Both the position numbers and the translations under genes were made by a program. The notes under the pieces are model-generated. The model saw nothing but the letters and a program-made list of their open reading frames with translations, ran no database searches and was not told where the DNA came from. This document shows positions 21,300 to 46,570 of a stretch of 51,209 bases of DNA, piece by piece; position 1 is the first letter of the stretch, and each line of letters starts with the position of its first letter. Origin of the DNA: Tepidibacillus decaturensis (GTDB taxonomy: Bacteria > Bacillota > Bacilli > Tepidibacillales > Tepidibacillaceae); the NCBI GenBank assembly GCA_016841555.1, contig JAENYW010000002.1:1-51209 (forward strand). Reading direction: 5' to 3'.

Positions 21300-22502
21300 T
21301 TAGCTTTTTCCTCCCCATTTTGTGTTTACTTCAGATAAAATATGATGAGCCAATTCCTTTTTGCTCATTATTGGATAGCTGATTTCATCGCCATCCCTCG
21401 TCAAAATGGTCACGATATTCGTATCCTGCTCAAATCCAGCACCTTTTGTTAGGATATGATTTCCTATTATCATGTCCATATTTTTTCTTATAAGCTTGTC
21501 CTTTGCATTATCTACAAGCTGATCCGTTTCTGCGCTAAATCCAATTAAAAGCTGGTCATCTCTTTTTATTTTTCCAACCTCCATGGCAATATCCTTGGTC
21601 CTTTCCATTTCAATCATCCATGGTCCTGCTTGTTTCTTTACCTTTTGATCGTGTACTTCCTTAGGTCGATAATCTGCAACAGCAGCAGCTTTAATAATAA
21701 TATCTGCTTGATTCATATGCTCCATGACTGCCTGATACATTTCTTCCGCTGTTTCAACGGAAACGATAGTAACCCCTGAAGGGATAGATAACGCTGTTTT
21801 CCCAGAAATTAAAATAACATCTGCCCCTCGTTCCTTTGCTGCTTCCGCTAGCGCATATCCCATTTTTCCAGTTGATCGATTGGTAAAAAAGCGTACAGGG
21901 TCTATCGGTTCCCTCGTCGCTCCTGCTGTAATGAGAAGCTTCTTCCCAATAAAGTCCTGCTTTTGTTCAAAATAGGCTTGGACGATATCTACAATTGCCT
22001 CAGGATCAGGCAATCTTCCTTTGCCAGCATACCCTTCTGCTAGCATGCCCTCAGTTGGCTCGATAAAGTGAACGCCTCTTTCTTCTAGTTTTTTTATATT
22101 TTCCTGTACAGTAGCATGATAGTACATGTTCACATTCATTGCTGGTGCAATAAATATCGGACTCCTTACCGCCAAAAGAGTGGTTGTCAGCATATCATCC
22201 GCCAATCCATGAGCTAACTTAGCAATAACATTAGCTGTTGCAGGAGCCACTAAAACCAAATCTGTATGGTCAGCCGTATGAATATGGGCTACATTTTCCG
22301 GATTATTCTCATCAAATGTATCAATCATGACGTGATTTTTAGATAATATTTGCAAGGTTAATGGCGTAATAAATTTTGTTGCGGCTTCTGTCATGATAAC
22401 TTGAACGTTAGCTCCCTTCTTAGTTAGTTGACTTGCTATAGAAGCAGCTTTAAAAGCCGCTATTCCACCAGTTATTCCTAATAGAATATTCTTCCCCTTC
22501 AT
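21300..22502 (-). CDS. coaBC: bifunctional phosphopantothenoylcysteine decarboxylase/synthetase CoaBC
   Basis: A 400-residue flavoprotein catalysing two steps of coenzyme A synthesis. The N-terminal CoaC half has GGIAAFKAAS and the substrate-binding APAMNVNM segment. The C-terminal CoaB half starts near LLITAGATREPIDPVRF and contains NRSTGKMG and the KKQ/KRDDQLLIGFSAET strands. The ATG at 22502 follows AGGAGG. A terminator-like hairpin lies about 20 bp upstream, which is unusual for this essential gene (see 22522-22554). Confidence 0.97.
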   Translation of the reverse strand: MKGKNILLGITGGIAAFKAASIASQLTKKGANVQVIMTEAATKFITPLTLQILSKNHVMIDTFDENNPENVAHIHTADHTDLVLVAPATANVIAKLAHGLADDMLTTTLLAVRSPIFIAPAMNVNMYYHATVQENIKKLEERGVHFIEPTEGMLAEGYAGKGRLPDPEAIVDIVQAYFEQKQDFIGKKLLITAGATREPIDPVRFFTNRSTGKMGYALAEAAKERGADVILISGKTALSIPSGVTIVSVETAEEMYQAVMEHMNQADIIIKAAAVADYRPKEVHDQKVKKQAGPWMIEMERTKDIAMEVGKIKRDDQLLIGFSAETDQLVDNAKDKLIRKNMDMIIGNHILTKGAGFEQDTNIVTILTRDGDEISYPIMSKKELAHHILSEVNTKWGGKS

Positions 22503-22521
22503 CAGTTTACCTCCTAGTTAG

Positions 22522-22554
22522 AAAAAAATAACAACCACATAAGGTTGTTATTTT
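22522..22554 (-). terminator. terminator-like hairpin between rpoZ and coaBC
   Basis: On the minus strand, a stem of 10 perfect bp (22543-22552 with 22527-22536, core AATAACAACC) with a 6-nt loop is followed by a run of seven T (22528-22522). Additional A-T pairs can extend the stem. The T run ends 20 bp before the coaBC ATG and only 6 bp before its ribosome binding site. It may be partly leaky, or act as an attenuator in the rpoZ-coaBC transcript. Confidence 0.72.
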
Positions 22555-22556
22555 CT

Positions 22557-22678
22557 CTGCTTATAGATAAAGCCCAATCCCTGCGTTGATACTCCAGCTA
22601 AGACTCTTACGTATGTCTGCATACGCTGCGATCCCTAGCTATCGTCTCGCCTTGACCTTGGGCTTTCTTTGCAAGCTG
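22557..22678 (-). repeat. 122-bp dispersed inverted-repeat element, copy 1
   Basis: Read on the minus strand this 122-bp unit aligns without gaps to 45880-46001 on the plus strand (about 101 of 122 positions identical). It begins with CAGCTTGCAAAGAAAG and ends with CTTTATCTATAAGCAG, imperfect terminal inverted repeats. Internally AAAGCCCAA pairs with TTGGGCTTT, GCTAGG pairs with CTTAGC, and CGTATG with CATACG. It lies 3 bp after the rpoZ stop. There is no coding capacity, so it looks like a small non-autonomous repeat (MITE- or REP-like) or a structured RNA element. Confidence 0.8.
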
Positions 22679-22681
22679 TTT

Positions 22682-22876
22682 TTACCTTTTAACTACCAAT
22701 ATTTTCTCACTTGCAATCTCTTCAAGAGCAACCCCTACATATTTATTTGAAAATGGTTTTTCAATCAAGTAATGCTCTCCCTCTCTGAATGTTCGTGCTC
22801 TCTTTGCTGCAGCAACTGCCAATGAATATTTACTATCCACCTTCGTTAATAATTTATCAATAGATGGTAATATCAT
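22682..22876 (-). CDS. rpoZ: DNA-directed RNA polymerase omega subunit
   Basis: A 64-residue small subunit that stabilises beta-prime folding in RNA polymerase. The family pattern LLTKVDSKYSLAVAAAKRAR is clear. The frame opens at 22897, but the ATG at 22876 lies 7 nt after GGAGG and overlaps the gmk stop (TAATG), so this start is chosen. Gmk and RpoZ are coupled, as in B. subtilis, linking GMP/GTP supply with RNA polymerase. A 122-bp repeat element follows 3 bp after the stop. Confidence 0.94.
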   Translation of the reverse strand: MILPSIDKLLTKVDSKYSLAVAAAKRARTFREGEHYLIEKPFSNKYVGVALEEIASEKILVVKR

Positions 22877-23493
22877 TATAATTCCTCCTTTAGCCATTGT
22901 TCATAGTAAGGTAATATTCGTTCTTTTCTTAATCTTTCTGCCTCGATAATCGATTGAATTCTTTCTACAGCCTTGGAAACTTCATCATTCATCACTAAAT
23001 AATCATAATGCTTCATCATCTGCAATTCATTTTTTGCTACATTCATCCGTTTTAGTATGCTTTCTGCTGTTTCTGTTCCTCTATTAATAATCCTATTTTT
23101 CAGCTCTGCCAATGTTGGTGGCATTAAAAAGATAAATATTCCTTCACCATACTTCTCTTTGACCTGTAACGCACCGTTTATCTCTATTTCTAAAATGACA
23201 TCTTTTCCTTGCTGCAATGTTTCTTCTACAAAAGCTCTTGGTGTACCATAATAATTGCCTACATACTCAGCCCATTCAAGTAATTGATCTTCTTTTATCA
23301 TCTGTTCAAATTCTTGGCGGGTTTTAAAGAAATAGTTTTCTGCATCTGTTTCACCACTACGAGGATTTCTTGTTGTTGCAGATACAGAATAGATTATATC
23401 ATCCTGCTTTTCTCGTAAATAGGAACACACTGTTCCCTTCCCAACACCAGATGGACCTGATAATACAATTAATAACCCCTTTTGCTTGACCAT
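22876..23493 (-). CDS. gmk: guanylate kinase
   Basis: About 205 residues. It phosphorylates GMP to GDP with ATP. The P-loop GPSGVGKGT lies near residue 13, and the GMP-binding region has SATTRNPRSGETD and YYGTPR. The LID region includes RIINRGTETAESILKR. The frame opens at GTG 23502; ATGs at 23496 and 23493 lie 5 and 8 nt after AGGAG, and the second is chosen. Located 17 bp after remA and overlapping rpoZ. Confidence 0.96.
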   Translation of the reverse strand: MVKQKGLLIVLSGPSGVGKGTVCSYLREKQDDIIYSVSATTRNPRSGETDAENYFFKTRQEFEQMIKEDQLLEWAEYVGNYYGTPRAFVEETLQQGKDVILEIEINGALQVKEKYGEGIFIFLMPPTLAELKNRIINRGTETAESILKRMNVAKNELQMMKHYDYLVMNDEVSKAVERIQSIIEAERLRKERILPYYEQWLKEEL

Positions 23494-45850: not shown

Positions 45851-45879
45851 CTCAGACTGACGAGAAGGTTGTCAGAAGC

Positions 45880-46001
45880 CAGCTTGTAAAGAAAGTACTA
45901 GGTCAAGGCGCGACGAAATCTAGGAATCGCTGCGTATACAGAAATACGTAAGAGTCCTAGATTGAGAAGCAACGCAGAAATTGGACTTTATCTACAAGCT
46001 G
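45880..46001 (+). repeat. 122-bp dispersed inverted-repeat element, copy 2
   Basis: Exactly the same length as the copy at 22557-22678 and ungapped against its reverse complement, about 101 of 122 positions identical. The ends CAGCTTGTAAAGAAAGT and ACTTTATCTACAAGCTG form imperfect terminal inverted repeats (14 of 17). An inner stem TCTAGG/CCTAGA replaces GCTAGG/CTTAGC of copy 1, a paired change. Its last 10 bp lie inside the pyrE reading frame and supply the final codons and stop. Confidence 0.8.
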
Positions 46002-46570
46002 CGACTTCCTGGTTTAATTGCTGGTAGCTTCCCTTCTATACATAAGGGACATTCTTCTGGATCATAGGATTTTATCTCTATTGATAATAGCGAATAAAAT
46101 GGATAGCCAAAATCTGTTTTTCCGTTACTACGATCCACTAAGACACCTACACCAACAACATCAGCACCTGCTTCTTCAACAACGGAGATTACTTCTTTTA
46201 CAGAACCACCCGTTGTAACTACATCTTCTACAACTAGCACCCGTTGTCCTGGCTCAATCTCAAAACCACGACGTAATGTCATCTGTCCGTTTTCTCTTTC
46301 ACAAAAAACGTTTTTCACACCTAAAACCCGTGATATTTCATAACCTACTATAATACCACCTACTGCAGGTGAAACGACAACATCTATTTGACTATCTTTA
46401 AAAGATTCTGCTAAGCTTGCACACAATGTAGATGTATACTCAGGATACTGTAAAGCCTGTGCCATTTGCATATATTGAGAGGAATGACGCCCAGACGTTA
46501 AGATAAAATGCCCTTCCTTCAACACTCCAGTCTTTTCAAATATAGATAAAATCTCTTCCCTTGATAACAT
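45992..46570 (-). CDS. pyrE: orotate phosphoribosyltransferase (short, clostridial-type)
   Basis: 192 residues. It converts orotate and PRPP to orotidine 5'-phosphate. The PRPP loop VVEDVVTTGGS (113-123) and SPAVGGIIVGYE are clear. FILTSGRHSSQYMQMA and the Cys-containing ending CPLCIEGKLPAIKPGSR follow the ~190-residue branch seen in clostridia and some other bacteria, not the ~216-residue B. subtilis enzyme. The last residues after PGSR and the TAG stop are formed by the terminal repeat of the element at 45880-46001. ATG after GGAGGG. It follows pyrF by 78 bp. Confidence 0.94.
   Translation of the reverse strand: MLSREEILSIFEKTGVLKEGHFILTSGRHSSQYMQMAQALQYPEYTSTLCASLAESFKDSQIDVVVSPAVGGIIVGYEISRVLGVKNVFCERENGQMTLRRGFEIEPGQRVLVVEDVVTTGGSVKEVISVVEEAGADVVGVGVLVDRSNGKTDFGYPFYSLLSIEIKSYDPEECPLCIEGKLPAIKPGSRSL

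Follow-up and report, generated by a model that had tools for sequence, protein, structure and literature searches.

A gene-free element with IS1182-type ends at the rpoZ–coaBC terminator of Tepidibacillus decaturensis and the duplication of whole hairpins around its relatives

The space between rpoZ and coaBC of Tepidibacillus decaturensis is occupied by a 122-bp element. With a probability of about 90%, this is a non-autonomous MITE that carries IS1182-family ends and belongs to a branch targeting the foot of terminator hairpins, which are duplicated in full. The copy in the window (the whole stretch of DNA that was analyzed, 51,209 nt) is a 122-bp, gene-free and non-coding remnant of a MITE of ~150 bp. 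On this reading, what looked like a regulatory puzzle is explained by a mobile element that inserted next to a conserved terminator within an operon. Mobility, adjacency to hairpins and their duplication, IS1182-type ends and empty sites can all be recognized at the level of sequence.

All genes of the rpoZ–coaBC locus lie on the minus strand. Read 5′ to 3′ on this strand, the rpoZ stop codon is followed by three T's, the 122-bp element, 2 nt, the hairpin with its T7 run, AGGAGG and the coaBC ATG. Direct reading thus bears out the order given in the preliminary description (rpoZ stop, 122-bp element, T7 hairpin, ribosome binding site, coaBC). The features are as follows, the last one belonging to a second copy of the element in the window:

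22500–22502, minus strand: start codon of coaBC (gene 21300–22502, minus strand)
22510–22515, minus strand: Shine–Dalgarno sequence AGGAGG of coaBC, read from the sequence
22522–22528, minus strand: T7 run of the terminator (A7 on the plus strand), overlapping the A-U part of the 3′ arm
22525–22554, minus strand: native terminator hairpin AAAATAACAACC-TTATGT-GGTTGTTATTTT (arms 22525–22536 and 22543–22554, loop 22537–22542), from folding and relatives
22557–22678, plus strand (LE-first orientation): MITE, 122-bp core, a long imperfect palindrome
22557–22572, plus strand: left terminus (LE) CTGCTTATAGATAAAG, consensus CAGCTTGTAGATAAAG, separated from the foot of the hairpin by 2 nt
22663–22678, plus strand: inner inverted repeat CTTTCTTTGCAAGCTG, which can pair with the left terminus
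22682–22684, minus strand: stop codon of rpoZ (gene 22682–22897, minus strand)
45880–46001, minus strand: core of the second MITE copy (LE terminus 45986–46001)

The hairpin together with its T run (22522–22554) is A/U-rich. Folding of 22525–22554 gives −16.8 kcal/mol (z −5.9), the whole gap has a fold z of −5.5, and only three of the 12 stem pairs are G-C. This weak hairpin is absent from the list produced by a simple terminator scan. The coaBC ATG is 19 nt from the last T of the T7 run, so the earlier claim that a promoter has no space 3′ of the run stands. Since a T7 hairpin is present without room for a promoter behind it, read-through into coaBC is likely, as had been proposed.

An AACAACC/GGTTGTT stem with a T run is found in the rpoZ–coaBC gap of 11 of 25 Bacilli relatives that lack the element. 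The distance from stop to start is 40, 57 and 66 nt in three genomes of the same family and 42 nt in another. The gap of one relative (G004) reads AAAATAACAACC-CTCTT-GGTTGTTATTTTTTT with no element, and the gaps of two genomes of the same family (G003 and G001) contain a similar hairpin. By this comparison, the rpoZ–coaBC terminator is native and old, common to relatives without the element. Because the same hairpin stands as near to coaBC in these relatives, the closeness of the two, and hence the read-through, must, as far as the compared gaps tell, be older than the insertion. Expression of coaBC-priA-def-fmt-rsmB would have relied on read-through of the hairpin already before the element arrived, and the conserved hairpin could serve as a natural case of partial termination within a core-gene operon. 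The stem AACAACC/GGTTGTT is kept across several Bacilli families (L247–L271), with loops and gap lengths that vary.

The tight spacing had been taken as a sign that the element may carry transcription signals for the genes behind it. Since the spacing is ancestral and is equal in element-free relatives, it gives no pointer to a promoter in the element; the read-through part of that proposal holds, and the part on transcription signals is not supported. Promoter prediction on the minus strand returned nothing in 22503–22681, and hence nothing within the element. The only promoter-like matches on this strand lie at 22875–22903 and 22832–22860, and the count of such matches in the 1-kb region is not above that of shuffles. 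A regulatory insert supplying a promoter or an anti-termination signal to coaBC-priA-def-fmt-rsmB would agree with the position of the element directly before coaBC, and with the strong fold of its core, in which pairing is kept across copies. We regard it as very unlikely, since dozens of terminators that have nothing to do with each other adjoin copies of the element, which occur in either orientation, and the element has no Rfam match. As one of some 60 mobile copies, each beside a different terminator, and with no promoter-like match inside, the element is unlikely to carry transcription signals, as the preliminary description had suggested it may.

The repeat itself is genuine. A blastn search of its own genome (3.0 Mb, 356 contigs) gives 43 matches of 80–100% identity. 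The left-terminus probe CAGCTTGTAGATAAAG, with two positions left open, finds 115 sites within one mismatch, and the reversed control finds none. At least 59 left ends, belonging to copies or remnants, are present in the 3-Mb genome. Elements occur in size variants of ~60, 120, 178 and 240 bp and in two head-to-tail arrays. Other copies end in the right terminus TCATCCTGACGA-nnnn-TCGTCAGTCTG, which is missing in the window copy; the outermost ends LE and RE form only an imperfect inverted repeat (~10 of 15 positions). The second copy in the window has a sequence resembling the right terminus at ~45852–45879. A pyrE-like gene (45992–46570, minus strand) runs at its 3′ end into this copy (45852–46001, L022), whose left terminus includes the stop and last codons of the gene.

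When the copies are placed in one orientation, the left terminus directly adjoins a hairpin that is different at every locus. At 45 of 59 left ends, a stem with 7 or more base pairs lies within 3 nt of the terminus, compared with 1.4% of dinucleotide shuffles. Behind an intact right terminus, the same hairpin usually recurs, loop included and in direct orientation; in one copy (L012), for example, CAAACAAATGGGCACATTTAGGTCCATTTGTTTT stands on either side of the element. Both inner ends are present in 44 copies; in 16 of these the hairpin is directly repeated across the element over at least 15 bp, versus none of 1,888 mismatched flank pairs. The repeated flanking hairpin is a target-site duplication. 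Its length varies with that of the hairpin, so the recognized feature is probably the hairpin as a structure. At one further copy (L006), the two flanking hairpins have oppositely oriented loops and are inverted, not direct, copies. The neighbor genes of 40 copies are convergent in 18 cases, co-directional in 20 and divergent in two, as expected at terminators.

The pairing within the core could also suggest a dispersed structured RNA family (a riboswitch, a leader or an sRNA) which stands beside terminators by chance. In an alignment of 28 element copies (A1, L001–L030), ten base pairs are changed on both sides and 97.6% of cells are paired. Wobbles are mainly G-U and rarely A-C when the right-end-first strand is read, which is the strand transcribed at this locus. 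Such a family is nevertheless a most improbable explanation: direct duplication of a hairpin that differs from locus to locus is the signature of insertion, the copies show no orientation preference toward neighbor genes (co-directional 10 versus 10), and an Rfam match is lacking. Given that the copies are related to one another and showed no preferred orientation toward neighbor genes, an RNA function of the core is not claimed. A riboswitch or other described RNA family was rejected because no Rfam model matched above chance; a group IIC intron, which inserts after terminators, was set aside because the window has no Rfam match to one and the target is duplicated.

The assignment of the MITE to the IS1182 family relies on full-length elements. 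NCBIfam NF033551 was sought in 301 Bacilli genomes, and 30 of the resulting loci were inspected; both ends could be placed in 16 of them and were not found in 14. Around 10 of the 16 delimited IS1182 elements (10 of the 30 loci), a whole hairpin of 18–31 bp is duplicated, versus 0 of 240 cross pairs. These ten IS are 1.52–1.70 kb long and have ends such as CAGATTGTAGACAAAG...CTTTGTCTACAGTCTG, close to CAGCTTGTAGATAAAG. The MITE thus shares its termini with NF033551 elements (LE CAGCTTGTAGATAAAG compared with CAGATTGTAGACAAAG and others), and it shares with full IS the target and its duplication (16 of 44 MITEs, 10 of 16 delimited IS). The right-end motif of the MITE and a hairpin bound IS1182 genes in two MITE-bearing genomes, exactly in one (L211) and more loosely in the other (L212). 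In a tree of the 30 transposases, rooted at the midpoint and with two rows on extreme branches that are probably in a wrong reading frame, all ten duplicating IS fall within one of two clades; that they form a single clade is only suggestive.

Other Bacillota also have this 16-bp terminus directly at hairpins. In Seinonella peptonophila (L097), an element of ~277 bp stands between two copies of a 23-bp hairpin; Ruminococcus sp. UBA4275 carries the same MITE type on many contigs, and in an Oscillospiraceae MAG hairpin duplications of 30, 24 and 27 bp were found (L130, L136 and L155, respectively). A scan of genome contigs with the right-end pattern, the own genome being left out, gave no match. 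Isolated 16-mer matches within coding regions of many genomes were attributed to chance. A 34-bp repeat 1.5 kb apart in Flavobacteriaceae (L117), considered as a full IS, encloses an LRR-like protein and no transposase, and was rejected.

An IS1182-type transposase would have mobilized the MITE in trans, but the genome of T. decaturensis itself has only two IS1182 transposase fragments, both decayed, and the one examined for ends (C244) has another terminal repeat, TGACAAGGGGACGTTTCG; this counts against the reading. So do the imperfect repeat of the outermost ends, the IS1182 loci at which no duplication was seen, and the lack of a second hairpin and a right terminus at the window copy. The repeat end TGACAAGGGGACGTTTCGTTTGGCATATG of the decayed fragment at C244:16000–20500 (L081) suggests a second repeat family in the genome.

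Insertion could proceed as follows. The target palindrome would extrude as a cruciform, the transposase would join the element ends to the 5′ foot of each stem-loop, and gap filling would leave one complete hairpin on either side of the element. Duplication of a whole hairpin corresponds to the hypothetical ‘pathway b’ drawn for IS1272 (PMC5678879). In the rpoZ–coaBC gap, the target would have been the old, conserved and weak hairpin 3′ of rpoZ, with the element landing at the foot of this hairpin, on the side of the rpoZ stop codon. The duplication is not visible at the window copy, beside which only one hairpin stands. Like other eroded copies, this one lacks the right terminus and a second hairpin, here on its rpoZ side; the two could have been lost together at a later time.

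IS1272 and TnSha1 of staphylococci (PMC5678879, PMC4923244) are similar to this system in their IS1182-family transposase and in their stem-loop targets, which have no common sequence and include many terminators. IS1272 replaces the target hairpin (PMC5678879); partial hairpin deletion without duplication has also been described, and several of the hairpins were confirmed as terminators (PMC4923244). The stem-loop is thus deleted or replaced in those systems with no target duplication, whereas here the whole hairpin is kept and duplicated, so an element of the stem-loop-replacing IS1272 type was rejected. The intact Bacilli IS1182 elements (L216, L220, L222, L224, L226, L229–L232 and L235) are alike in having ends CAGNYTGNNGANAAA, insertion at terminator hairpins and duplicated hairpins of 18–31 bp; they differ in being ~1.5–1.7 kb long with a transposase gene, whereas the window element is gene-free. 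RUP, BOX and SPRITE of pneumococcus and other bacterial MITEs are likewise short, palindromic, intergenic, multicopy and non-autonomous, but a preference for terminator hairpins with duplication of the hairpin was not found in the review (PMC10969869). IS of the IS1202 group have unusually long target duplications as well (16–28 bp), but a different transposase, TGT...ACA ends and no recognized target (PMC10132070); the MITE ends are CAG...CTG, and this group was rejected.

No description of a duplicating form of IS1272-type transposition was found in the literature searched. Target duplications given in ISfinder for the IS1182 family range from 0 to 60 bp, and its curators may have seen long duplications already. 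The present comparison offers sequence-level evidence for a structure-guided duplication of whole hairpins of any sequence and length, previously only drawn for IS1272. It appears likely that a large IS1182 branch and its MITEs across Bacillota recognize hairpins by their structure and duplicate them in full, terminators being safe harbors that are multiplied by each insertion. Elements of this kind spare genes, can spread among distant Bacillota and alter the number and spacing of terminators. Should this be true, each landing leaves two terminators flanking the element, and terminators are re-spaced genome-wide.

The insertion may have had a consequence for termination at rpoZ, which we consider possible, though doubtful. 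In the closest relatives, the rpoZ stop codon lies 0–10 nt from the hairpin or within it, and in several relatives the 5′ arm includes the stop codon; in the window the distance is 127 nt. In E. coli, the ribosome deprives a terminator a few nucleotides behind a stop codon of nearly all its activity, and full activity is reached beyond ~27 nt (PMC4824070). If ribosomes cover the hairpin of the relatives, its shift by the MITE to 127 nt, out of their reach, could have strengthened termination. However, transcription and translation are functionally uncoupled in B. subtilis according to Johnson et al. 2020, as far as that work is cited in PMC7821165, so the ribosome-occlusion argument may not apply here or in Bacilli.

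Short terminators CTTGTAGATAAAGTCC...GGACTTTGTCTACAAG followed by a T run occur in Fictibacillus gelatini (L116) and Cytobacillus oceanisediminis (L157). They combine the left terminus with an inverted copy of itself, and could possibly be minimal elements that have become terminators.
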